Virus record (IMG/VR): IMGVR_UViG_3300025131_000414
Span: 1 to 24,379 of that record
Length of the DNA stretch: 24,379 bases
From: a virus
Reading direction: 5' to 3' (one strand)
Shown piece after piece: positions 1-24,367 of the stretch. Below the pieces are notes generated by a model, which did not search any database, was not told where the DNA came from, and saw nothing but the letters and a program-made list of their open reading frames with translations. The translations under genes were made by a program, and so were the position numbers. Within the stretch, counting starts at the first letter, position 1. The number at the start of each line of letters is the position of its first letter.

Positions 1-324
1 TGTAAAAATATCGCCAGCTTTTAAGTATATTGTACCATCAGAAACGCTTTTGATTTTATTTACGATATGACTATTTAATGCATTCTTAATTTCATTGAAT
101 TTTTTATCATCATGAATATACATTTGCCTTAATTCTAAAATTGATTCTTGTAATACCCATTCATAAATGTTTTTTATTTTTTTCAATATATCAATTTTAG
201 AATAATCGACTTCTTTGCCATGCTTTGGATTAAAATCTTCGTCACCATTATCAAATTTTGTTAAATATTCTTTAAATGCCGATGCTAACTTTTTCTTATT
301 AAATCTGAATTCTGTATCTATCAT
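1..324 (-). CDS. Unidentified protein, 5' part only (runs off the left edge)
   Basis: An open frame starts at an ATG at 322-324 and stays open for 108 codons to the first base of the window, so the C-terminus is missing. The start overlaps the polymerase stop in an ATGA arrangement, which argues for translational coupling. The visible protein begins MIDTEFRFNKKKL, is rich in Lys, Asp and Ile, and looks mostly helical, with no signal peptide or membrane segment. I do not recognise a family. Its position directly after a DNA polymerase makes a replication or nucleotide-related role possible, but that is only inference from context. Confidence 0.75.
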   Translation of the reverse strand, partial: MIDTEFRFNKKKLASAFKEYLTKFDNGDEDFNPKHGKEVDYSKIDILKKIKNIYEWVLQESILELRQMYIHDDKKFNEIKNALNSHIVNKIKSVSDGTIYLKAGDIFT

Positions 325-1703
325 TTTTTTAGCTCCGCTAAATTCTTGCCATAATTTATTGTAGTTGATAAGTCTAAGAATTTAACAATTTCAGTTAATA
401 CATTTTTTTCATCTGGATGGATATCTATAATCATTTCATCATAAATTGTTGCTATTAGTTTTGAAAATTTATTGTTGAAATAAAGATAATGTGTAATTGC
501 ATTTGTATATTGAATTGAAGTAAATGAGGCTAAATTCTGAATCATGTTATTCATACATTTTCTTTTAGCTTCAGTCTCTGTTTTATAGGTTATTTTAAAT
601 CCATTTTTTGTTGTTATGCTTAGATTCTTTACGGCATTATTTTTGAATGTTTCTAATTTCTCTTTTATATTGAACTCTTCAACAGTTGCATTAATAATAT
701 CAATATCGTATTTAGAAGAACCATACATCCATTTTATAATGTTTGTTTTGACTTGTTTTCTTGTAAATCCACCTTTATAATGAAGCAAATTAATCTTATC
801 TGTAATTGCTTGATATGGATCGCTAAATTCACAATACACATCAAAAAATTTTAGTAATATCTTAAATTCAAAGCATTGAAAATCTATGCCGCATAACATA
901 CCATCATGAAATCTAGATATAATTATTTTTGAATATTTTTCAGGTATGTTATGAAATGATGAAGCAAGTCGACCAGTAGATGTATGATCTAAATGATATT
1001 TAATTTTACCATGATATTGAGCTTCCTTTAAATCAGAAAAATACTTAGAAACCAAATTTATATCTAGCATTTCTAATTCATCTGTATCTATTTTTATTTT
1101 TGCAAATTCTTCTATTATAGCGTAATACATAGAAGCATTATGAAGTAATTTAATGAATTTTTTATCTTTGAAATCTAATTTCATTATTTGATAAATTTTC
1201 AGTAATACTTCAAGCTCATATTTAATCAATGAAGAAAGATTTGATGAACTTAACACTTGATATGAAAAAAAATCAAAATTGAATAGCCTTGTATAAAATT
1301 TCATATGTTCATCTGGACATTTAGTATTTACAAATTTTTGAATGGTTTCGTCTGTTAAATCTATATGCTTATTGAACCTATCATAAAGGAATAACTTAAT
1401 ATCTTTGAAAAGCGAAATGTCAGGAGTAAAATCATTATTGATCATTACAGAATAAAATTCTTTGAGGTCGTAAAGTATAACAAAACATTGTTTGTCTATT
1501 AATATTTTGAATAAATTGCTAATAAAATTTTTTTGGTCAAGAATTTTATCTACAATGAAAAATATTTCATCTATGACAAAACCTATAGAAATAATTTTTG
1601 ATAATTCATGATCAGGCTTTAATGATAAAATGATATTCTTATCTTTAGCTTCATATATTTTATTTAAAAGTAAAATTTCATTGTAGTTATGTATAATTTC
1701 CAT
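321..1703 (-). CDS. Diverged family A DNA polymerase (Pol I/T7-like), exonuclease domain apparently inactive
   Basis: Replicative or repair DNA polymerase of 460 residues, much shorter than E. coli Pol I (928) or T7 gp5 (704). The polymerase motifs appear in order: TSTGRL at 241-246 followed by NIPE at 252-255; motif A GIDFQCFEFKIL with D274 and E279; motif B with R315, K319, Y327 and G328 at the usual Pol I spacing; motif C ATIYDEM with D422 and E423. At the spacing of Pol I Phe762 there is Ile323, and the usual HDE of motif C is YDE. Residues 20-170 look like a worn 3'-5' exonuclease domain: the DxE strand reads LSLKPD and the expected NLKYD block reads DLKEF, so catalytic acids seem lost. 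The start is an ATG with AAGG 7 bases upstream. It follows tail genes after a 67-base gap, so it may open a new functional block. Family assignment is firm; the exonuclease reading is from alignment by eye. Confidence 0.88.
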   Translation of the reverse strand: MEIIHNYNEILLLNKIYEAKDKNIILSLKPDHELSKIISIGFVIDEIFFIVDKILDQKNFISNLFKILIDKQCFVILYDLKEFYSVMINNDFTPDISLFKDIKLFLYDRFNKHIDLTDETIQKFVNTKCPDEHMKFYTRLFNFDFFSYQVLSSSNLSSLIKYELEVLLKIYQIMKLDFKDKKFIKLLHNASMYYAIIEEFAKIKIDTDELEMLDINLVSKYFSDLKEAQYHGKIKYHLDHTSTGRLASSFHNIPEKYSKIIISRFHDGMLCGIDFQCFEFKILLKFFDVYCEFSDPYQAITDKINLLHYKGGFTRKQVKTNIIKWMYGSSKYDIDIINATVEEFNIKEKLETFKNNAVKNLSITTKNGFKITYKTETEAKRKCMNNMIQNLASFTSIQYTNAITHYLYFNNKFSKLIATIYDEMIIDIHPDEKNVLTEIVKFLDLSTTINYGKNLAELKK

Positions 1704-4466: not shown

Positions 4467-5285
4467 TTATATATCAAGTTGAACTCTAATTGTTACGGGG
4501 ATGTCAGTTGATTTTCTCATTGGTCTTGTTAATTTTCCCACTGCTAATAAATTATTATCATCATCGTATAATCCTATTGATGAAATATGAGGTTGCCAAG
4601 CAATACCACTTGAAACTAAATCTGGAAAGAATTCAGCATTATTTGAGCTACCTGTCAATCCACCAGTCATATAATTTCCACCGGCAGTAATATTAAATGC
4701 TGAAGGATTTAAAGTAAAATTCATTTCATTTGGTTGGCATTTACAAAATACGCTTAATTCTGTATTTTGAACAATTGCTCTATATTTTAATGATGTAATT
4801 GATTGAACTATGCTTGTCAATGATGATGATGCAGATGTAACAACAAACATTCCTTCATCATTAAGAAATGCGCCATAAGTAACACCATTGCTCTTTCTTA
4901 CTAATGCTCCAGAACCAGAATCATAATAATCATCTGCATGTGCGCCAGTTACTGCTGCAGTTAATGATCCATTTTTTATCTTAACATCAAAAAATCTTTT
5001 TTTCAATTGATAGATTCCAATATTACCAGTAAGACCCGTATAGCTTTCTTCAAAACCCCTATTGAATAATGTCATTCTTGTAGAATAATATGAACTAGAA
5101 TTGCTGCCAGTTAAGCTTGCAGTTACTGAACAAACAGATGTAGCTAATGTATCAGCAGTCGTTATTGTCAATAATCTTGATGTTTCAAAATCAGTGTAAA
5201 TAACATCAGAAGCCTGTAACGAAACATAAGCATTTTCAATATCTTTGTTCGTTATTATAGGTAATGTTGGAGGTCCTAAAGCCAT
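4467..5285 (-). CDS. Peripheral baseplate/fibre protein with shared C-terminal structural module (paralogue 3)
   Basis: A 272-residue protein. Residues about 95-272 carry a module also present in the genes at 5827-8001 and 8021-8887. Here it reads GALVRKSNGVTYGAFLNDEG, then FCKCQPNEMNFTLNPSAF at 180-197, then ISSIGLYDDDNNLLAVGKL at 234-252, and it ends in VQLDI. This 'E(M)N(F/Y)T.NP ... (T/S)(I/V)GLY.D...L(L/V)A(V/I)GKL..P' pattern is familiar from structural proteins of large aquatic phages, often annotated only as hypothetical or tail fibre. The N-terminus is a short unique region beginning MALGPPTLPIITNKDIENAY. The start overlaps the stop of the 2H phosphoesterase gene by one base (TAATG), so expression is probably coupled. 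Confidence 0.7.
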   Translation of the reverse strand: MALGPPTLPIITNKDIENAYVSLQASDVIYTDFETSRLLTITTADTLATSVCSVTASLTGSNSSSYYSTRMTLFNRGFEESYTGLTGNIGIYQLKKRFFDVKIKNGSLTAAVTGAHADDYYDSGSGALVRKSNGVTYGAFLNDEGMFVVTSASSSLTSIVQSITSLKYRAIVQNTELSVFCKCQPNEMNFTLNPSAFNITAGGNYMTGGLTGSSNNAEFFPDLVSSGIAWQPHISSIGLYDDDNNLLAVGKLTRPMRKSTDIPVTIRVQLDI

Positions 5286-5806
5286 TATAGTTTTATCTTT
5301 ATTTTTTTTCCATCGCTAGATGAAAATATGATTGTTTTAACTAAAAATTTTCTATCTCTAAATTCATCAATTCCTACGTATTTTTTTCCTATTCCTGGTT
5401 GAACATATCCTATTGTAACATGCGGCTTATAATCAGGCCAACTATTTTCATTTTTTATATTTTTATCTAAGGTATAATGCATTTTATGTAGCATTTCACC
5501 ATGAACATCAATTTTTATAACATCGTAATTATCAGCATTAAAAATTGATAATTTACCAAGAAATACTTCAAATGGTTTAAATTTCTTTAATATCTGTCTT
5601 GTTTTTATTGGCTCTTCTTCATGCAGGCCATATAGCACTGTACAATGAATATCATCTTCTCTTCCATAAGAATCATCTTGGGGATCTTCATATATTTCAT
5701 TATTAGGAATATTATCATTTCCCCATTTTATCAATTCTCTTGCAAAATTTAATGGAAAATTTGCTTGTGTTGAACTATAACTATAACTACCTTTCATTTT
5801 TTTCAT
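5285..5806 (-). CDS. 2H phosphoesterase (2'-5' RNA ligase / cyclic phosphodiesterase superfamily)
   Basis: A 173-residue soluble enzyme with both signature motifs of the 2H superfamily: HCT at 54-56 inside DDIHCTVLYGLHEE, and HVT at 129-131 inside YKPHVTIGYVQPG. The spacing of 75 residues and the overall length fit single-domain members. Known 2H proteins act on 2'-5' or 2',3'-cyclic phosphate bonds; in phages they include the T4 anti-CBASS protein Acb1, which cleaves cyclic oligonucleotide signals, and RNA-end processing enzymes. Both His-x-Thr pairs are intact, so activity is expected; the substrate is not determinable. The first ATG (5804-5806) has only a weak purine-rich site; an ATG three codons in is an alternative start. 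It sits oddly between structural genes and is coupled to the next by TAATG. Confidence 0.85.
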   Translation of the reverse strand: MKKMKGSYSYSSTQANFPLNFARELIKWGNDNIPNNEIYEDPQDDSYGREDDIHCTVLYGLHEEEPIKTRQILKKFKPFEVFLGKLSIFNADNYDVIKIDVHGEMLHKMHYTLDKNIKNENSWPDYKPHVTIGYVQPGIGKKYVGIDEFRDRKFLVKTIIFSSSDGKKIKIKL

Positions 5807-5826: not shown

Positions 5827-8001
5827 TTAAAAATCCAATTTTGTTTGTATTTCTACTTTACTTGTTTCATCTTTTCTAACTGGCACTGATAATTTTCCAA
5901 TAGCTACTAATTCACCTGTATCATTGTATAAGCCAACAGACGTAATATAACCAGCAGGTTCATCTAATATTGTTCCACCACTTTCAACATCTACACCAGC
6001 TGGATTTTCAGTAAAATTAAATTCATTTCCTTCACCAACAGCATTTAATAATAATCTACCTCTGTTATCTATTGAATTAAATACAAAACGTTCAACATTT
6101 AATGCAGCGTTATTAGTTCCTGTTACTGAAAAACCAAAATCACCAGTTGTCCCAGATGCTGGCCATAAAAAATTCATTCTAGCATTAGTATCATCAGCAT
6201 CTAAAACTATAACACCTAAATCATAATAAATTATACCTACTCTAATTTGTGTACCATCTGCAGCCCTTCTAATTATTCTTCCTTGCTTAAGATCATTATC
6301 AATAACATTATTTTCTGGGATGTCTATGTATAAATATGTTCTTGGATTTGCAGATAAGGATGTATCAACTATTGTATTTCCTTGAGCAGTTACAGTGAAA
6401 TCTGTATAATCAAATAATTCAATTTTTGATTCACCTATCAAGCTACCAGTATTAGAATTTTGTGATACATCTGCGGCAGTTATAGTATTTCTTTTATTAA
6501 AATTCCACCAACCAATTAAATTAGTACCTAATGTGCCTGTTAATGAATTATCCTTGAAATTATTAAATGATAAACCTGCTGAGCTTGTAGCATTTACAAT
6601 TTTTTCAACCGATTGCTTAATTCCAGTAGTTCCATCTGTAAATCTTTGATTCCATATTCTTATATGTTGTATTTGACCATCAAAACCACCTTCAATACGA
6701 GGATTATTAGCATTTAATAATGAGCCTCTATCTCCAATCGTATCTTCTTTGCCATCTCTATTGAAATTTGATATACCAAAATACAGATTATTACCAGAAG
6801 GTGAAGCATCTTGAGTATCAACATATTCTATTGCACTTGTTCTAATTGGTATTCTTTGTTCAAACATATTTGCTTGAATAACAGGGCCACCAGCAGAATC
6901 AGCACCACCTCTTCTTGGATCTACTTGTTCTTTGTTAAGTAATTTAAATCCATCAATATAGCCAAATACTGCTCCAGCACCAGATTCAATTGTTGTGCTT
7001 TTATCAACTCCTGAAATTCCCCAAGAAACTATTAAATGATGAAATCTTCCATCAAATAAATTTATTCCTACGTCACTTGGAATGAATAAACCTGATGCTT
7101 GAATATCATTTTTTGCAAAATCTTCTGAAAATGTATCATTAGCTGTAACTGATCTTATATAGAATCTAAATGCATTTTGAACATTATCTGCTGATTTTGT
7201 TAACTCTAATTTTAAAAATGAATTTTGTGTTTCTACAGTTGCACCAGCCCAAGCTTCAGAAGAAAGTCTTCTCCATAATATAACTGAATTTTCTTTGTAT
7301 GGTCTAATTATAGCTTCAATTGTTAAACCACTTGTCGCAGTATCTAAACTTGTGCTTTCAGCCCAAGGAACACCAAAAAATGATTTATCGGTTGTCCCAA
7401 TATCACCGCCAAATGGATTTTTTAGATCTAATGCAGTAACTAATCCTGTTGATGCACCTGCAACAATTCCTGTTGCAGAAGTATTAGAAAGATTCATTTC
7501 CATTCTAACAGAATTAGGTTCTATAGATGATCTAAACAAATCCCTTCTTAACGTAATTAATCTAATAACTGAAATACTTGACGCTGTGCTTGTGCTTTGT
7601 AATGCAGTTATACCTGCAACATAAGAATTATCGTTCCTATATAAATATCCATGAGTATAATTGAATATAGATTGATGAGATGCTGTAGCTGCATTATTGC
7701 TTGAACTTTTAAATTCTTGATCTGGGGCAGAAAGAAAAATACCTGATGTTCTTTCTGCTGTTAACGAACTACCTGGAACTGTTGATTTATCAAATAAAAA
7801 TTGATACTTAAGTTCTTTAGTTAATGTTAAACCAAATGATGGAGGTGTATCAACATCGAAGAATGAAATCTTCCCTAATGAACGAATTCCAGTAAAAAAA
7901 TGAACATGCGTCGCAGTAGGACTTCCAGTAGAAATACTCAAGTTTTGCCTATTATCAAATGAAATAGGTACAATATCTGAATCGCTGAATGCTTTAAACA
8001 T
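5827..8001 (-). CDS. Large LamG-containing fibre/baseplate protein with shared C-terminal module (paralogue 2)
   Basis: A 724-residue structural protein. Residues about 220-500 form an extended LamG-like domain: LTIEAIIRPY at 226-235, FHHLIVSWGI at 320-329, FGYIDGFKLL, then GFDGQIQHIRIWNQRF at 439-454 and LIGWWNFN. A long insert lies before the closing strand. Residues about 555-724 are the module shared with its two neighbours: TYLYIDIPEN, VGIIYYDLGVIVLD, NEFNFTENPAGV at 659-670, YITSVGLYNDTGELVAIGKL at 685-704, and a terminal KLDF. Residues 1-215 are beta-rich with no family recognised. The gene starts at an ATG preceded by AAGG and follows the 288-residue paralogue by 19 bases. Role inferred: an adsorption appendage attached to the baseplate. 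Confidence 0.75.
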   Translation of the reverse strand: MFKAFSDSDIVPISFDNRQNLSISTGSPTATHVHFFTGIRSLGKISFFDVDTPPSFGLTLTKELKYQFLFDKSTVPGSSLTAERTSGIFLSAPDQEFKSSSNNAATASHQSIFNYTHGYLYRNDNSYVAGITALQSTSTASSISVIRLITLRRDLFRSSIEPNSVRMEMNLSNTSATGIVAGASTGLVTALDLKNPFGGDIGTTDKSFFGVPWAESTSLDTATSGLTIEAIIRPYKENSVILWRRLSSEAWAGATVETQNSFLKLELTKSADNVQNAFRFYIRSVTANDTFSEDFAKNDIQASGLFIPSDVGINLFDGRFHHLIVSWGISGVDKSTTIESGAGAVFGYIDGFKLLNKEQVDPRRGGADSAGGPVIQANMFEQRIPIRTSAIEYVDTQDASPSGNNLYFGISNFNRDGKEDTIGDRGSLLNANNPRIEGGFDGQIQHIRIWNQRFTDGTTGIKQSVEKIVNATSSAGLSFNNFKDNSLTGTLGTNLIGWWNFNKRNTITAADVSQNSNTGSLIGESKIELFDYTDFTVTAQGNTIVDTSLSANPRTYLYIDIPENNVIDNDLKQGRIIRRAADGTQIRVGIIYYDLGVIVLDADDTNARMNFLWPASGTTGDFGFSVTGTNNAALNVERFVFNSIDNRGRLLLNAVGEGNEFNFTENPAGVDVESGGTILDEPAGYITSVGLYNDTGELVAIGKLSVPVRKDETSKVEIQTKLDF

Positions 8002-8020: not shown

Positions 8021-8887
8021 TCAATACTGTAATTGGACGCCGAGTGTTAACTCATCTGCAAAGGTCTTCTTAATAGGCGCTGAAACTTTTCCAACTGCTA
8101 ATAAAGAACCATCATCGTGGTATAAACCAACTGTTGTAACCCATGTTCTTGGATTGGCAGTTAATGATCCAGTGATTGTTCCTTCTACGGCATTAGAAAT
8201 TGCAGTAGGATTATTGGTATAATTCATTTCCTTATTAAACGCTCTGCAATAAAAAGTTGTTCTTTTTAAAATGTTTAAAGATTTCCATGATAATGAAGTA
8301 CAAACTATCTTACCGGCGCTAGCTGATCCAAATGTAAATCCTGAAGCAGATTCAACTAAGAAATGAGGCCATCCAGTTCCACCATGAAAAATCATAGAAC
8401 CAGATTCATAAAACACTGTTCCTACTATATTGGATGTATTTCCTTGAGATACTAATGCACCTTTTCTGCCAACTGATGCAGTAATACTTGTTTCTGGAAT
8501 ATCAATATAAGTATTATTTCCAGATGTTCCAAATGCAAATACAGCTGTCAATGTTCCTGAAACAACTGCATCATCCATTGTTGTCCTGCCAATCTGAATA
8601 GCTCTTGTTATTCCAGTTGTAGTAGTTTGATCATGTGCAACTGGTACTACATTTCCTCCAGTTGATGAAAAATAGTAATGTGAAATATGTCTGATTGTAG
8701 AGCTTAATGGAATTGTCGTAGCTGTTCCTTGTGCATTTGCTAAAAATCCTGTACTAGAGTTTTCTGATACAAATGCTGAAACATTTCTATTTTGTGCTGC
8801 AGACAATGCAGTAATTTCAAAAGCAGTTTTTGTTTCTACTGTTTCATCTGCAACATCTTTATTTGTATCTAATTGTACGAAAGACAT
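8021..8887 (-). CDS. Peripheral baseplate/fibre protein with shared C-terminal module (paralogue 1)
   Basis: A 288-residue protein whose residues about 126-288 are the common module: TYIDIPETSI at 126-135, IVGTVFYESGSMIFH at 154-168, FYCRAFNKEMNYTNNPTA at 212-229, WVTTVGLYHDDGSLLAVGKV at 249-268, and a terminal VQLQY. Residues 1-125 differ from the paralogues (EITALSAAQNRNVSAFVSEN and onward), so a variable head sits on a conserved tail. The likely role is attachment of different surface modules to the virion. The ATG has AAGGGGTGA upstream and lies 15 bases after the 186-residue gene. No enzymatic motif was seen. Confidence 0.72.
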   Translation of the reverse strand: MSFVQLDTNKDVADETVETKTAFEITALSAAQNRNVSAFVSENSSTGFLANAQGTATTIPLSSTIRHISHYYFSSTGGNVVPVAHDQTTTTGITRAIQIGRTTMDDAVVSGTLTAVFAFGTSGNNTYIDIPETSITASVGRKGALVSQGNTSNIVGTVFYESGSMIFHGGTGWPHFLVESASGFTFGSASAGKIVCTSLSWKSLNILKRTTFYCRAFNKEMNYTNNPTAISNAVEGTITGSLTANPRTWVTTVGLYHDDGSLLAVGKVSAPIKKTFADELTLGVQLQY

Positions 8888-9472: not shown

Positions 9473-9964
9473 TTATTTATAAACGTATAAAGCTACTGAA
9501 GGTTTACCAGCTAATTGTCTTAATTTTGCTTCTGCAGCTTGTACATATTTTAATTGAACATGCCCTAAAATTGTTCCACGGCCAATTTCTTTTCTGTTTT
9601 GATCATGAATAAAACTTCGTTCATCACCTATCTTATGATTAGATGCATCGCTACCTTTTGATGGATCGCCAGCTCCTGCAATAGCTATTGTTTTATCTTT
9701 TTTAATTGCACCATATGGGTCAGCCTTAAATTTGACAAGCGTAATCCACCCACCACCCTTACTATCGCTAAGCCAATCACTTACAAATTCATTTTTTTCT
9801 GGCTGAGCAAATTTTAAAGAAGATCTAGTAGTTAAAATAGGATCACCCTTATCGGTAAACGCATCCCATCTTTCCCGTCTTGGTTTACCAGGTCTTTCAT
9901 TTAACATTTTCTCTTTAAGTACTTCCTTAATCAATGCTTTAATTTCTGATTTTTTAATTTTCAA
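9473..9964 (-). CDS. Unknown protein with amphipathic N-terminal leader; TTG start
   Basis: A 163-residue protein started by TTG (9962-9964) behind the strongest Shine-Dalgarno in the window, GGAGGAA at 9969-9975. No in-frame ATG occurs until codon 20, past most of the charged leader, so TTG is preferred. The leader MKIKKSEIKALIKEVLKEKM, ending LNE at 21-23, is a charged amphipathic helix of the kind seen at the front of many marine phage proteins. The body (RWDAFTDKGDPI onward) has a Gly-rich middle (SKGGGWITLVKF, IAIAGAGDPSKGSD) and no family I can name. The leader could be a capsid-targeting or assembly tag cleaved after LNE; that is inference. Confidence 0.75.
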   Translation of the reverse strand: MKIKKSEIKALIKEVLKEKMLNERPGKPRRERWDAFTDKGDPILTTRSSLKFAQPEKNEFVSDWLSDSKGGGWITLVKFKADPYGAIKKDKTIAIAGAGDPSKGSDASNHKIGDERSFIHDQNRKEIGRGTILGHVQLKYVQAAEAKLRQLAGKPSVALYVYK

Positions 9965-15276: not shown

Positions 15277-15816
15277 TCATATTTTTGGTTTACCGAATAA
15301 TTGTTTGACTACTTTTAACGATCCACCAACAGTTCTTTCATATTTACCATTATCATCAAGCCATTTTATTTTTTTGCCAAGAACCTTTTCAACTTTTTCT
15401 TGAGTATCAACAATGTTTATGTTATTGTCTACAAAAATTTCAGCTAAACGATGAGATGCTTCTACAAACCAACCTGATTTTTTTAAGCTGGATAATTTGT
15501 GCTTAACCAAGGCGCTCTTTCCTTCTCTGCCGCCATCAGTTCCAGCAAGTACCATTTTATTACCGAATCGTGTTTCTTTATAGATCGTGAATGCATCAGG
15601 CATTGGATCTTTATCTACATCTATCAATAAAGAAACCTTATATTTTCCTGTTAGCTCACTCAGGCTTTTTACTATCAGGCCAATGGATTTATATGTATGT
15701 TCATACATATCCCATATTTCATTAAGAACATCTTGATCTAATTCTGATAGTTTTTTGATCACCCATTTCTTTTTAGGAGCATTGAAATCTTCATTTAGTA
15801 CTTGTCTTAATTTCAT
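15277..15816 (-). CDS. Unknown phage protein with VLNE leader, possible GNAT-like fold
   Basis: A 179-residue protein beginning MKLRQVLNEDF, a short leader ending L-N-E like those of T4 internal head proteins. The body contains MYEHTYKSIGLIVKSLSELT, then VSLLIDVDKDPMPDAFTIYK, AGTDGGREGKSALVKHKLSS and GWFVEASHRLAEIF. I recall this layout from uncharacterised proteins of large T4-related phages; the strand order and the Gly-Arg-Glu-Gly-Lys loop loosely suggest an acetyltransferase-like fold, but I cannot confirm an acetyl-CoA motif. The ATG overlaps the gp6 stop by one base (TAATG). An injected or head-internal protein, or an accessory assembly factor, are both possible. Confidence 0.7.
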   Translation of the reverse strand: MKLRQVLNEDFNAPKKKWVIKKLSELDQDVLNEIWDMYEHTYKSIGLIVKSLSELTGKYKVSLLIDVDKDPMPDAFTIYKETRFGNKMVLAGTDGGREGKSALVKHKLSSLKKSGWFVEASHRLAEIFVDNNINIVDTQEKVEKVLGKKIKWLDDNGKYERTVGGSLKVVKQLFGKPKI

Positions 15817-17618
15817 TATATTACTCTACCAATAATATCAAAATCTAAAAAGCGTGTTTCCCAAATTGCATATTCAGGAAATCTTAAGATTCCGTTGTTT
15901 GTATGCGCTGCAATATTAAATGCAACATTTGAATATGTTCTTCCATCTAAACTACCTGTTATATTTGTTATATTGAATGATGCTACTGATCTAATTTTGT
16001 CAATAGATTGAATTCTTGAAACAATATCAGGTATGACTATAAAATCATTAAAGTTAGAATTGGTTATATCAAATACTCTTCTAAGTTTTAATAATGCTTC
16101 TAATAATGCTTCATTTCCATTTACATTTGGTTCTGGAACAATTGAAAAATCTGTTTTGATATTTATTATCTTACCATCTGATAGTTTTACTGAATCAGAA
16201 AATGATTTAAATTTGTTTATGTATACACCAATATTATTTTTCAGCGTACCACCAGGAGCCATTAAACGATTATCTGTATCTCTTGATATAAGGAATAATT
16301 CTACGCCTAAAGCATTTTCAGGATCTTTTCTTGAATGGGCTCTAAATACTGAACCAAAGCATGCAGGTAAACTTCTTACTAAAACTTGATAGTCTTGTAA
16401 CGTTACTGCTCTATTTTGTGCGCTAAAGAATGCTGCTGCATTTTCTCTCATCTCTTCTAAAGATTCTCTTTCCGAACCACCAGTAGCTTGTTCTGCATTT
16501 GATACCTTCATGTTATGTTCAATAACATTTACTTCTTCTGCAGATAATGATTCAAAATTAGCAGTCTTATATGTTACTGTTCTTTCTCTAAATCTTGTAA
16601 GTTGGTTTGAACCAACATTAGTTTCTAAACCTCCACCAAATCTGTAATTAACATCTAATGAAATATTTGCTGGTGCAAAACCTAAACTTTTTGTATCAAG
16701 AAATTGAGCTGCGTTAATAGCAGGTGGAGTAAATCCTGATGCAGATCCCCTTAATGTAGGAGGTAAAACAAAATCTTCTGGATTGATTATAACTTCTGAA
16801 TCTTCTAATGTTAATTTTCCAGAACCAAATCTTATAAGAGTTCTACCAGCAGTCTCTCTTTCAACTGTATATCTTCTTGGTACCCTCTTTGCTTTAAGAA
16901 CAAATGGTGTATTGCCTGATGTTGATGTATCATTATTTTCGCCAAACATAATTGTATCTTGCGCTAAATGGTCTACTTCAGTCCATTCATTTCCATCAGA
17001 ACTAGTAATTGAAATAACTTCAGTAATATCTTCATTTGGTAATTCAATTTCTAAGAATGACTTACCAGCACCAACAGTATATACAAATGTTCTTGATTGT
17101 CCTGCAACTGCAGAAACTCCTGAAATAGATGCTGTAACAAATGTAGCATCGCTTGTTACTGTTCTATTTGCTGTTAACGAAAAATCAACATCTTCTATGA
17201 TTTCAAAACTAACGGCAGGTTCTAATTCAGTAGAAACTCTTGTACCTTTATTTATTACAAATAATGATTGCGCAGATGTTGCTTTAGTCATAACGGCACT
17301 AATAGAAACATCAACAGTTGCTGGAGTAACAAATCTTGGTTTTCTACCTAATGTTTTTGAAAGTCCTATTATATTTTTTTCTTCAACAGCTCTATTGATA
17401 AATGTTTCATTAGCTTGTCTATCAATATGGAATGACATTAAGTCACCAACATACGCAAGCATTTCTAAAAGAGCCATACCGCCTGAAGCTTCATTAAAAT
17501 CCTGAAAATCATTTGGAAAGTTTTGCTGAATAAATTCCATTAAATTCAGTTTTATACTATCAAAATCTTTTGATAGATAATTTACATTACGAACTTCTTT
17601 GAGTTTTTGTGTAGCCAT
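15816..17618 (-). CDS. Baseplate wedge protein, T4 gp6 / P2 gpJ-like
   Basis: A 600-residue protein (T4 gp6 has 660). The N-terminal block contains VNYLSKDFDSIKLNLMEFIQ (13-32), SGGMALLEMLAYVGDLMSFH and then RQANETFINRA, which is the classic start of gp6/baseplate J proteins. A later block EEMRENAAAFFSAQNRAVTL, then DYQVLVRSLP, marks the conserved second half, followed by LGVELFLISRD and FNDFIVIPDIVSRIQ. In T4, gp6 dimers form the ring that joins wedges and triggers sheath contraction. It lies directly after gp25 with a 10-base gap, the same order as T4 and P2 (W then J), which strongly supports the call. Confidence 0.92.
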   Translation of the reverse strand: MATQKLKEVRNVNYLSKDFDSIKLNLMEFIQQNFPNDFQDFNEASGGMALLEMLAYVGDLMSFHIDRQANETFINRAVEEKNIIGLSKTLGRKPRFVTPATVDVSISAVMTKATSAQSLFVINKGTRVSTELEPAVSFEIIEDVDFSLTANRTVTSDATFVTASISGVSAVAGQSRTFVYTVGAGKSFLEIELPNEDITEVISITSSDGNEWTEVDHLAQDTIMFGENNDTSTSGNTPFVLKAKRVPRRYTVERETAGRTLIRFGSGKLTLEDSEVIINPEDFVLPPTLRGSASGFTPPAINAAQFLDTKSLGFAPANISLDVNYRFGGGLETNVGSNQLTRFRERTVTYKTANFESLSAEEVNVIEHNMKVSNAEQATGGSERESLEEMRENAAAFFSAQNRAVTLQDYQVLVRSLPACFGSVFRAHSRKDPENALGVELFLISRDTDNRLMAPGGTLKNNIGVYINKFKSFSDSVKLSDGKIINIKTDFSIVPEPNVNGNEALLEALLKLRRVFDITNSNFNDFIVIPDIVSRIQSIDKIRSVASFNITNITGSLDGRTYSNVAFNIAAHTNNGILRFPEYAIWETRFLDFDIIGRVI

Positions 17619-20223: not shown

Positions 20224-22233
20224 CTATATAAATAATTCTGAGTTATGTTCTTCATTAACATGTTTTGAATACAATTGTTTTTTGCTAGTATTGAATGGTT
20301 TTTTTAAGCCAGCTTCTATTACTGTTATAAAAGAGTCTTTATTTAATTGTTCAGTTACAGTCAATATATTATACACACCTTCTAATTTTTTTATTACACC
20401 ACGAATACCTATCAAATTATAAGCATTTATTCCAACCGTGCCATGAATGGTTATTGAAGTTCTTTTTAAATAAAGACCTAATAATTTACCGAATGTATCT
20501 GCATCTTTAGATAATGCTCTTAATATCCTTCTGTAATTTCTAGTATCTTGTGATACAAGTTTATCAATAACTGAAGGCGCATCTATTGTAACTGCTTTGC
20601 CATCTTTTGGTTTTGCTTCTTCAATTATTTTTAATATGTCATCATCTAATCCTTCTCTTCTAAACGCATCCGCATATTTTCCAGTTGTTAGATCTTCTAT
20701 AGTGTCATTTAATGGAACAGGTAATTTATAAAGTTCAAAAGCATTTGGGTCTAATTTAGATGACAAATCCATTGAATAACATAATGAATTAGATACACCA
20801 AAATTTATAAACATTGTTGAATCTGCAGACCTATCATTTAAATTGCTTTGTCTCTCTATTTCTATTTCTAAGCCATCAACATTAACGCTTGGTACAAAAA
20901 CATGTAAAACTCCATCAACTGTTTTAGTTGACACCTGTACATTTGGTACTGCAACTATAGAACTATCAGTAACTGATCTAATCATATCTAAAACAGGTAA
21001 ATCAGGGGTATCTATGATTAGATCTACTGCAGCCTTATCTAATGGCAATTGAAAAACATTGAATAGGCTTTTTGATGCAGTAGTTTTTGAATCCCCTTCT
21101 GGATCATAAAATTTTTGATAATATGTAGCTAATGCATTGTTTTGTTCTATATCTTGATAAGCAAGACTAACATTAATATTTTCGCCATCTCTTGATACAG
21201 CGTCTTTTAATGCCTCTAAAACCCAGCCAAGATGATAATATGTATCTTTACTTTCTCTTGATGAACCAGTCCTTACTTCTGTTTTAAGTTCTTTTCTCTC
21301 CTCATCAGTCATATCATCAATAGTTGTTTGAGAAACTTCGTTTCCATTAGAATCTACAGTTATTGTTTCTTGCGTCTTTCTGTCTATAAATACTTGTATC
21401 TTAGGTTTTTTTAAATTAGGGTCTTTAGCAATTAGTTTCTCAATTTTTACTGGACGCACATTTGGATCATTTGAAATTCTTTTTGAATCAGAATTTAATA
21501 ATTCTGATGGTATTGTTTCAGAATCGAGAAACTGTTTAATTCTTATAGCTACACCAGAACTTTTAATAAATGTTAATGCTGCATTATTAGGAGTTGAAAA
21601 TGTAAGTGATGTATCAATATGGCCTTTATCATCAAATGAAAAATCAAATTTATATAGTTTACATAATTCACCTTTCCAAAAACCATTATTTTTAGATTTA
21701 AGATCTATTATATTAGTTCCGAGTGTCTTAAATAGCGGAGGCCCAGTAAACAATCCAGATTCAGCTGCTGTCCAACCATACATTAAAAGATATACTGAAT
21801 TTAATGAAATTAGTTGCCCATATGTTGGATCAAGATCAAATATATCTGGATTCATTATAGTCATTTTCATGCTATATCTAATGTTAAATGCTTCCTTTGT
21901 GCCCCTTGTTATTTCTAATGAATTAATACCTGCTCCACCTTTTTGATTACCGGATTGTAATTGAGACTCTATCTTACCAATAACTGCACCCTTTATACTA
22001 GTATTAGCATTTGTATCGCTAAATACACTTGACCTATTATTTTTAAATTTGAAATCAAGTAAATCCATTTTATTTTTTTCTGGATCAGTATAGCTTTCTA
22101 AGTCATTATTATCAAACAATGCTACTAAATTAACAAATGGCACAAGCTTAGAGAGTTCTAAACTACTTGAATTTATTCTACTATTCCACCCATGTATTAT
22201 TTCTTCTTCTACGTTAAAAATTGTTGAAGACAT
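20224..22233 (-). CDS. Baseplate hub protein (gp27/gpD-like functional position)
   Basis: A 669-residue protein in the slot between the gp53-like gene and the spike. The N-terminal part has ITRGTKEAFNIRYSMKMTIM, SVYLLMYGWTA and FKFDFSFDDKGHIDTSLTFS, consistent with the nested beta barrels of hub proteins. The C-terminal block RTSITIHGTVGINAYNLIGI, then GVYNILTVTEQL and FITVIEAGLKKP, resembles the end of hub proteins in large aquatic myoviruses, where the analogous strand reads as a ligand-free 'tIhGt.Gi.afn.i.ikgv' motif. A charged central insert (residues about 250-350, TDEERKELKTEV) may be flexible. It starts at TAATG shared with the gp53 stop. The hub call rests on synteny and motif memory. 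Confidence 0.62.
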   Translation of the reverse strand: MSSTIFNVEEEIIHGWNSRINSSSLELSKLVPFVNLVALFDNNDLESYTDPEKNKMDLLDFKFKNNRSSVFSDTNANTSIKGAVIGKIESQLQSGNQKGGAGINSLEITRGTKEAFNIRYSMKMTIMNPDIFDLDPTYGQLISLNSVYLLMYGWTAAESGLFTGPPLFKTLGTNIIDLKSKNNGFWKGELCKLYKFDFSFDDKGHIDTSLTFSTPNNAALTFIKSSGVAIRIKQFLDSETIPSELLNSDSKRISNDPNVRPVKIEKLIAKDPNLKKPKIQVFIDRKTQETITVDSNGNEVSQTTIDDMTDEERKELKTEVRTGSSRESKDTYYHLGWVLEALKDAVSRDGENINVSLAYQDIEQNNALATYYQKFYDPEGDSKTTASKSLFNVFQLPLDKAAVDLIIDTPDLPVLDMIRSVTDSSIVAVPNVQVSTKTVDGVLHVFVPSVNVDGLEIEIERQSNLNDRSADSTMFINFGVSNSLCYSMDLSSKLDPNAFELYKLPVPLNDTIEDLTTGKYADAFRREGLDDDILKIIEEAKPKDGKAVTIDAPSVIDKLVSQDTRNYRRILRALSKDADTFGKLLGLYLKRTSITIHGTVGINAYNLIGIRGVIKKLEGVYNILTVTEQLNKDSFITVIEAGLKKPFNTSKKQLYSKHVNEEHNSELFI

Positions 22234-22556
22234 TATGAATCATCTACCTTTGTTTGAATATGATTTAAGATATTATTGATGTTGGTTGGTATTCTTAATT
22301 TTGTTCCTGGAAGTACTGTAGAACCAAAAGGAAGATGAATATCATTTAATAAGCATATCGCCCACCAGTATCTTCCATCGCCTAAATATTGTGCAGCTAA
22401 TTGGTCTAATTTTTGTCCATCTTGAAAATTTATAATTACATCATTATTATCATCTATTAAATCAACTGCTTTTATAGGTGGAAATGTTTCTAATCTTGGT
22501 TTTCTTTTTTTTCTATCTCTTACATTAAGAAATTTTTCGTATCTTGATATGGCCAT
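22233..22556 (-). CDS. LysM-like baseplate protein, T4 gp53 / P2 gpX-like
   Basis: A 107-residue protein. A basic N-terminal arm (RYEKFLNVRDRKKRKPRLET) leads into a LysM-type fold: INFQDGQKLDQLAAQYLGDG, then RYWWAICLLNDI, then PFGSTVLPGTKLRIP. Gp53 and P2 gpX use this fold to hold baseplate wedges or hub together, with no peptidoglycan binding required. Both junctions are one-base TAATG overlaps with the tube-cap and hub genes, indicating coupled, matched synthesis. Confidence 0.85.
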   Translation of the reverse strand: MAISRYEKFLNVRDRKKRKPRLETFPPIKAVDLIDDNNDVIINFQDGQKLDQLAAQYLGDGRYWWAICLLNDIHLPFGSTVLPGTKLRIPTNINNILNHIQTKVDDS

Positions 22557-24367
22557 TATCCTTTCCTTCTAAGAAAGTCAACATAAGATTCAGATTCAGT
22601 TCCTTTATCGCCAGATGGTTGAGATATTAATTGACCGCCATCTTCTTTTGTAGTAGTAACACCTGCTTGAAGGCCCCAATAAAAATCAAAATTCCTATCT
22701 GGAAGCGCTGCATGGATAACTTGATAGCTTAGTTGTGCTTGACATGTTACTGGCATTCTTACACCCTTTGTTAATTCCCATTTACCACCTGCACCTCCAT
22801 GATCCCAATTATAAGTAAGGCTCCTAATATAACCAGGAATCCTGCTAAATATATCACCAATTGTAAGTCTAAGTAACGGTCCAGTTTTTACTCTATTCAC
22901 ATTAAAATCTGTATCAATATCAAATTGCCCATAACATTGTTGTGCTAACCAATTTGTTCTTTCATATACATTTTGCAATTCTCTCATTGAATTAGCAAAA
23001 ATAACAAACTGAATATCTAATGTTCTATCAGTTTCAGAATATGTATAAATCTTTTCTGTCCTTCCAAAAAAAGACTTAGGTGTCCAGTTTGGTTGAAAAC
23101 CTTCTTGCATTTGATTTAATGTTGCCTGTAAAAAACAATATTGTTTAAAATCACCATCTCCACCCCTATTCTCTGTTTCAAACATAAATGGAAAATATTG
23201 ATTTTCTGCATGGCCAATAGATTCAATTGCACCAGGAGCATTAGCATCTTCCGAACTTAGAAAGTCTAAAAATCGGGCAAAATCTCCGTGGAATTTGTTG
23301 AAAACTCCACTGGTGATGTCTTGTGTAAGTGCTTGTTGATTTGAATTTATTACTGCTGGATTTAATTTATCAGAATTAACATTTATGTTATTTGTAAATC
23401 CTCTGTCATGCTTATCAGAATTTAAATATGCTTCATCATCTGAAAATTTAAATGCTTTTGTACCATATATATCAGGCTCTTGAATTTCTCTAATTGAAGT
23501 TCCGCCCATTACGCCTTCTGGAATTGATGGGTCATTTCCAGCATTGTTGTTATTAATGTATGTATTTTTAAATGTATCTACATTAGATAAGTTATCTCCT
23601 GGTAGTAATAAATTTTGTTGCAACATAATATCTAATGATTCTTTTTTTCTTATTGGCGTTGGAGGCCTATTAAATGCAGATGAATATGCGGTAGTCAATG
23701 CTCTTGATTGAGAATTTGTAGTTAGATAATCTATGAAGTCCCAAAAACCTAATCTACCTCTTTCTATCCCAAGTAAAACTTCATCAATGCCAGATGAAAA
23801 ATAAGATTTCGCTACATTAGCAGGACTACCAAATGCTGGTCCTAAAATTTGCCCTAAATTAAATGTTAATGCTGCACCGTCTTCTATATTTTCAAAACTT
23901 GGTTGATCACCTGGAAACCCTTCAACTTTTGAAAACGCTCTATCATATGTATTTTTATCATTAAACTTGGAAACATTAGGATTATTTTCAGGAGAATTTA
24001 ATCGAGGTGACATTGGGGGCGAAGAATCTGGAGGTCTTGTTATAGTTGCCTCTTTACCAGCTACAACTGGACCTGTATTACCCATAACAGAATCTTTGTA
24101 TATTGATTCTAATAATTTCTTGTTGGCTTTATTCACATTAGATATATAACTTAAAAATGATATAAAACCACCACCTTCTGCGAATGCTTTTTTAGACCCT
24201 TCTTTCAATTCTTCATGAGAAAGATATTCTGCAAATCCTTTATACGGGCTTGCAGAAGTATATGTATCAAATTCATTTACGGCAGTAATTAAATTACTTT
24301 TATGCTCTTCATAATTTTTGATTATGCTATTTTTCTTTGTATCTAACAATAATCTTGATGTTCCCAT
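22556..24367 (-). CDS. Tail-tube initiator / baseplate tube cap, T4 gp48/gp54-like
   Basis: A 603-residue protein. The N-terminal 380 residues are helical and Asn/Ser-rich with no clear family. Residues about 385-565 contain a strongly conserved block: ENQYFPFMFETENR, FKQYCFLQATLNQMQEGFQP, FFGRTEKIYTYSETDRTLDI, YERTNWLAQQCYG, TGPLLRLTIGDIF, IPGYIRSLTYNWDHGGAGGK and WELTKGVRMP, ending near LPDRNFDFYWG. This block marks the tube-nucleating proteins that sit on the hub and start tube growth in contractile tails. The start ATG has TAGAGGA upstream and lies 12 bases from the right edge of the window. It overlaps the gp53-like start by one base. Confidence 0.75.
   Translation of the reverse strand: MGTSRLLLDTKKNSIIKNYEEHKSNLITAVNEFDTYTSASPYKGFAEYLSHEELKEGSKKAFAEGGGFISFLSYISNVNKANKKLLESIYKDSVMGNTGPVVAGKEATITRPPDSSPPMSPRLNSPENNPNVSKFNDKNTYDRAFSKVEGFPGDQPSFENIEDGAALTFNLGQILGPAFGSPANVAKSYFSSGIDEVLLGIERGRLGFWDFIDYLTTNSQSRALTTAYSSAFNRPPTPIRKKESLDIMLQQNLLLPGDNLSNVDTFKNTYINNNNAGNDPSIPEGVMGGTSIREIQEPDIYGTKAFKFSDDEAYLNSDKHDRGFTNNINVNSDKLNPAVINSNQQALTQDITSGVFNKFHGDFARFLDFLSSEDANAPGAIESIGHAENQYFPFMFETENRGGDGDFKQYCFLQATLNQMQEGFQPNWTPKSFFGRTEKIYTYSETDRTLDIQFVIFANSMRELQNVYERTNWLAQQCYGQFDIDTDFNVNRVKTGPLLRLTIGDIFSRIPGYIRSLTYNWDHGGAGGKWELTKGVRMPVTCQAQLSYQVIHAALPDRNFDFYWGLQAGVTTTKEDGGQLISQPSGDKGTESESYVDFLRRKG

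Follow-up and report, generated by a model that had tools for sequence, protein, structure and literature searches.

A compact family A DNA polymerase with isoleucine at the Phe762 site in a metagenomic tailed phage, probably an accessory enzyme and a sister of divPolA1

The gene at 321..1703 of the window, by which we mean the entire 24,379-base virus record fragment analyzed here, encodes a compact family A DNA polymerase of 460 aa that carries isoleucine at the position of Phe762 in Escherichia coli Pol I. The reading that we favor, and consider rather probable, is that of an accessory family A polymerase without proofreading, probably a sister of divPolA1, which would fill short gaps behind another replicase. 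The ORF starts with ATG and stops with TGA, and its assignment rested on a profile, a fold model, and the catalytic residues.

The window virus is a tailed phage of large size that has been seen only in metagenomes. All main genes of the window lie on the minus strand, to which all window coordinates in this text refer, in the order tail/baseplate genes, large tail proteins, polymerase ORF, and a gene at 1-324. A gp6-like baseplate wedge is encoded at 15816-17618, and the hub and baseplate genes at 22556-24367 and 22233-22556, followed by a gene for a 669-aa protein at 20224-22233 (together 20224..24367), served as a synteny marker. Rfam matches and tRNAs were not found within the 24-kb window, and promoter-like matches near the polymerase gene did not rise above chance level. 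Among the tail genes, 5285-5806 encodes a 2H-phosphoesterase-like protein of the 2'-5' RNA ligase superfamily, which scored 29.9 bits with the Pfam model of the anti-CBASS protein Acb1, above its cut-off of 27. A C-terminal module of ~70-100 aa is common to the three tail proteins encoded at 4467-5285, 5827-8001, and 8021-8887 and also occurs in several tail proteins each of Microcystis phage Mel-JY01, Flavobacterium phage immuto, and LR756508. A similar N-terminal helix (MKIKKSEIKALIKEVLKE-like) was seen in small structural-region proteins of the window (9473-9964) and of two other contigs (L147:282-1208, minus strand; L156:9725-10363, plus strand); this starting helix is perhaps a shared sorting or cleavage tag.

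Evidence for the family assignment was weak from tools that use the single protein but strong from profile and fold. The Pfam DNA_pol_A score of the single protein was 22.8 bits, under the cut-off of 34.3, phmmer with the single protein found no match in the PDB, and most matches to phage PolAs had 20-28% identity over partial length. A three-sequence profile, in contrast, retrieved Pol I chains from the PDB sequences, with Bst Pol I as the best match (E 6.6e-7). The structure prediction that the earlier note had called for was performed with AlphaFold2 and gave a confident Klenow-like fold (pLDDT 83.4, pTM 0.82). Among solved structures, Foldseek ranked apicoplast polymerase, Bst Pol I, and Klenow nearest, at E values of about 1e-17 to 1e-16 and TM values of about 0.68-0.79, with up to 0.79 to Klenow. 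In a viral fold search regular PolAs ranked first, and the clade of Ile762 enzymes described below was therefore not placed by this search.

Motifs A, B, and C are all present within the Pol I fold, as is typical of family A. Motif A extends from the catalytic D274 to the steric-gate E279 (E. coli D705 and E710; 867..884), motif B lies on the O-helix R315-G328 (RKQVKTNIIKWMYG; 720..761), and motif C consists of Tyr421-Asp422-Glu423 (E. coli H881-D882-E883; 435..443). They are accompanied by a TSTGRL motif at residues 241-246 (E. coli T664-R668 region; 966..983). In E. coli numbering D705, E710, R754, K758, Y766, G767, N845, Q849, D882, and E883 are kept, whereas the position of H881 is occupied by Tyr, just as the earlier note had read motif C (YDE). 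Its description of the protein as a compact Pol A is thus upheld by the profile match to PDB Pol I, by Foldseek, and by the catalytic residues. An RNA polymerase is unlikely because Glu710 is retained. PADLOC contained no model matching the polymerase. The large fragment of Bst Pol I, the top match of the sequence profile in the PDB, shares the fold of the window enzyme but differs from it by Phe at the 762 site, a full thumb, and a length of about 580 aa.

The codon ATA at 735..737 specifies Ile323, which occupies the position of E. coli Phe762 and T7 Tyr526. When the protein was aligned with other PolAs, Ile323 coincided with E. coli F762 and T7 Y526 in all five MAFFT settings, and in the profile alignment, which pairs TRKQVKTNIIKWMYG with RRQAKAVNFGIVYG, it falls on the Phe of Bst Pol I. 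Misalignment of Ile323 was rejected because these two approaches concur. They confirm the earlier placement of this residue, and R315, K319, Ile323, Y327, and G328 indeed stand at exact Pol I spacing.

Relatives were located via gp6-based neighbors, a sequence profile, and an O-helix DNA pattern; a direct protein search of viral contigs yielded a near-copy of the phage only, and no relatives were found in bacterial and archaeal genome contigs. Both IIKWMYG and YDE are retained in two further lineages whose polymerases share 34-36% overall identity with that of the window: a sister lineage (contigs G004, G006, and G010; 36%) and a third one (L134/G011; 34-35%). Ile762 is thus not a one-off. Across the three lineages 10 of 14 O-helix positions are invariant, compared with 63 of 231 across the polymerase region (P about 5e-4). 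Outside this Ile762 clade only Phe, Tyr, or Leu was seen at 762 in a limited sample that does not amount to a census. Phe was present in those divPolA1 relatives that could be scored and in 78 of 80 HTVC033P-type environmental PolAs (two were unread); each reference enzyme carries F, Y, or L. The comparison with environmental PolAs suggested in the earlier note hence gave no Ile outside the clade, and the residue looks rare, in agreement with the claim that Ile is uncommon at this site. Regular viral PolAs carry Phe, Tyr, or Leu here; the three lineages of the clade all carry Ile.

Residues 1-175 (1179..1703) form a degenerate 3'-5' exonuclease-like domain, as judged by alignment and secondary structure. 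In the window protein Leu, Leu, and Phe stand in place of E. coli D355, E357, and D424, and none of the three Ile762 lineages has these acids; an acidic residue is left at the D501 position, which is Glu. The exonuclease domain of the Bst Pol I large fragment is inactive as well. The thumb region is truncated (residues 198-242; 978..1112), with 46 residues between the helix motif that precedes it and the TGR motif. The stretch between the pre-thumb helix and the TGR motif measures 43-46 residues in the Ile762 clade and 38-45 in divPolA1, as opposed to 126 in E. coli Pol I, and the window enzyme lacks the full thumb of regular viral PolAs. The replaced acids and the short thumb imply that the enzyme is probably without proofreading and has little thumb. 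A decaying or non-catalytic PolA relic, retained as a structural or DNA-binding protein, would be in keeping with the adjoining tail genes, with an exonuclease half that is already dead, and with the far divergence of the polymerase (36% identity between lineages versus 67% for the baseplate gp6). However, conservation of the protein is among the highest at the catalytic residues and motif B, and three lineages have an intact frame; a relic appears very improbable.

The combination of replaced exonuclease acids and a truncated thumb is found in divPolA1, an extra polymerase described for 14 phages (Yutin et al. 2024, PMC11348598). The window gp6 is 28-32% identical to the gp6 proteins of immuto, Mel-JY01, and the 484-kb LR756508, all of which encode a compact PolA of 408-452 aa beside another polymerase, a full PolA in immuto and PolB in Mel-JY01 and LR756508. 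With divPolA1 (immuto gp1) the window enzyme has in common the compact size, the short thumb, the replaced exonuclease acids, Tyr for the motif C His, the same gene order, and a further DNA polymerase encoded beside it, seen for the window clade in its sister lineage; it differs in that divPolA1 and the window clade are only about 15-19% identical. Of the features defining divPolA1, a palm with the main catalytic residues, replaced exonuclease acids, and a truncated thumb were seen in the window enzyme itself, and the regular polymerase of family A, B, or C in the same genome corresponds to a PolC in the sister population, located on an overlapping contig of 99.9% identity. Sampled divPolA1 proteins have His710, a residue other than Arg (mostly Tyr) at 754, Phe762, and Ala883 (motif C YDA). 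From this H710/Y754/F762/A883 set, which is not part of the published definition, the Ile762 clade differs by E/R/I/E. Compact PolAs of the divPolA1 type were detected in at least 447 IMG/VR stretches (the set includes L044-L123, L156, L030, and L128) by a scan that selected the motif C peptide LYTYDAF and is therefore biased for that motif. Hundreds of IMG/VR stretches thereby join the 14 published genomes as carriers of the accessory compact PolA. divPolA2 (Yutin et al. 2024) resembles the window enzyme in being an extra exonuclease-less PolA of phages having a regular polymerase, but it is set apart by its description in that paper, which assigns it an unrelated N-terminal domain.

Gene order provided a further link. 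In Mel-JY01 and L156 homologues of 22556-24367 and 22233-22556 are situated just upstream of the compact PolA, and downstream of it come a gp2-like gene, ssb, and RecA. The order in immuto is gp1 (PolA), gp2, ssb, RecA, 5'-3' exonuclease, and DnaB. The sister contigs of the Ile762 clade show the immuto order with insertions, namely PolA, a partner gene, a gene for a ~650-aa protein, and a gp2-like gene (41% to immuto gp2), with ssb and RecA (44% to Mel-JY01) about 30 kb beyond the latter. The replication genes of the sister lineage as a whole (gp2-like, ssb, RecA, 5'-3' exonuclease, and DnaB) follow the divPolA1 order with long insertions. Baseplate and tail genes form a block between the hub genes and PolA in the window lineage. 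Pairwise BLAST and gene order tie the Ile762 lineages to Mel-JY01, L156, and LR756508.

A tree, as had been proposed in the earlier note, joined the Ile762 clade and divPolA1 with moderate support (86/84). AU tests rejected neither a grouping with HTVC033P-type PolAs (p 0.20) nor one with herellevirus-type PolAs (p 0.17). Profiles of the Ile762 clade matched regular PolAs equally well or better than divPolA1, the best similarity after the own clade being to the PolA of pelagiphage HTVC033P, and a two-row profile had no match in immuto, Mel-JY01, and LR756508. Because of the moderate support, the unrejected alternatives, and the missing residue set, the Ile762 enzyme is called a probable sister lineage of divPolA1 rather than a member. 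Alternatively, a regular PolA might have replaced divPolA1 at the locus and been reduced independently, in which case the likeness to divPolA1 would be convergence. In-place polymerase swaps are documented among phages (PMC11348598), and both groupings left standing by the AU tests are compatible with such an event. Replacement would nevertheless require that thumb deletion, exonuclease loss, Tyr881, and the locus each arose twice, and the best tree unites the two clades. We regard it as rather unlikely, and the placement as a sister branch is retained below.

The 84-kb virus contig G012 shares 35 kb with G010 and 17 kb with G006 at 99.9% identity and was assigned to the same virus population because of this near-identical overlap. 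It stops some 4.4 kb short of the PolA gene present on G006 and G010; the three contigs were compared separately and not joined. G012 encodes a family C polymerase of 1104 aa (DNA_pol3_alpha, E 3e-55, plus PHP and finger domains), and also a 5'-3' exonuclease, DnaB, UDG, ThyX, and ribonucleotide reductase. The contig L156, a divPolA1 carrier, encodes PolB. A second polymerase was not seen on any contig of the window's own lineage, the 24-kb window included. At the edge of another contig of the sister population, the first bases (L015:1-300, corresponding to G006:1-300) encode peptides that look foreign, possibly a chimeric contig end.

The presence of PolC in the sister population makes it most likely that the Ile762 polymerase is accessory. 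It might instead be the replicative PolA of the phage, an ordinary viral PolA that evolves fast and whose 762 residue, a fourth type, tunes replication speed. The retention of the regular residues E710, R754, and E883 favors this, as does the profile similarity to the HTVC033P PolA, the best one outside the clade. The PolC of the sister virus population, the absence of both thumb and proofreading, and a gene order that is that of the accessory PolA all argue against this proposal, which we consider unlikely. The earlier interpretation therefore stands in part. It was correct with respect to identity, Ile, and Tyr; the use of residue 762 as a clue to replication style found no support, given the PolC in the sister population and a probably accessory enzyme, and the dead exonuclease, the missing thumb, and divPolA1 (PMC11348598) had been overlooked.

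The polymerase gene is followed by a conserved gene whose first part is contained in the window (1..324); its start codon and the stop codon of the polymerase overlap. This partner ORF (window 1-324; L153:9397-10086; L155:9332-10081; 230-250 aa where complete) overlaps the PolA stop codon by 4-14 nt in each of the three Ile762 lineages. The partner protein is 43-47% identical between lineages, a value above that of the polymerase itself. It matched no known family, its structure model was poor (pLDDT 58.5), and the gene was not found in the divPolA1 loci compared. The partner protein is a candidate cofactor of the polymerase.

The analysis established which residues and domains are present, what fold is predicted, how the genes are ordered, and that a PolC is co-encoded in the sister lineage; catalytic activity, the cellular role, and the kinetic effect of Ile762 are deductions. 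In the accessory role proposed here, an enzyme consisting of palm and fingers with a dead exonuclease domain and a thumb stub would act while another polymerase, PolC in the sister lineage, copies the fork. The compact PolA and the separate 5'-3' exonuclease, encoded at L252:12166-13197 in the sister lineage, probably divide the work of bacterial Pol I between two proteins. Beside a PolC fork, ssb, RecA, this exonuclease, and UDG, a short-patch gap filler would plausibly complete the set, and slow short-patch filling is the most likely role. As suggested by gene content, the gaps to be filled would be short ones arising from Okazaki primers, recombination, and uracil excision. In Pol I, Phe762 and Glu710 jointly read the sugar of the incoming nucleotide. 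Unlike Phe, Ile762 should be unable to stack on this sugar, and looser nucleotide positioning and slower synthesis are expected for this reason, while Glu710 should still keep ribonucleotides out. Slow synthesis would be tolerable in gaps, which would explain the persistence of a non-aromatic residue at 762, and compensating changes may exist. At the equivalent site of Taq polymerase, the substitutions F667M and F667A lowered the rate to 0.13 and 0.02 of wild type and raised fidelity (PMC11666352). The Taq variant F667I-R728N-M747S, in which the effect of Ile is not isolated, had 0.02 of the rate and made one error per 22,506 nt versus 5,986 nt (PMC11666352).

divPolA1 altered Glu710 and Arg754 and kept Phe762, whereas the Ile762 clade kept Glu710 and Arg754 and altered Phe762. 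Speculatively, the nucleotide-sugar checkpoint might have been rebuilt in opposite ways, with divPolA1 losing Glu710 and the Ile762 clade the aromatic residue, resulting in unusual substrate selection for specialized repair. If this tentative idea were true, the Ile762 enzyme might select dU or modified nucleotides or serve lesion bypass.

As the earlier note had stated, surveys of viral PolAs discuss Phe, Tyr, and Leu at 762. The table of Nasko et al. 2018 contains F, Y, and L and no others (PMC6302109), and Keown et al. 2022 kept only F, L, or Y and also discarded sequences whose DNA_pol_A hit was shorter than 325 aa (PMC9069017). Owing to the F/L/Y filter, Ile is missing from the literature on this residue at least partly by construction, and the length rule would probably miss compact enzymes too. 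The regular viral PolAs of these studies share with the window enzyme motifs A, B, and C at Pol I spacing as well as E710, R754, K758, and Y766; their full thumb, their length of about 590-1150 aa, and F, Y, or L at 762 are absent from it, and the references sampled have His in motif C as opposed to Tyr. Residue 762 is in use as a marker of viral replication style. A natural, conserved Ile762 renders this marker incomplete, and because some viral PolAs are not replicases, inferences from residue 762 need to be combined with a check for a second polymerase. The Ile762 polymerase offers a natural enzyme for studying how an aliphatic residue functions at this site.
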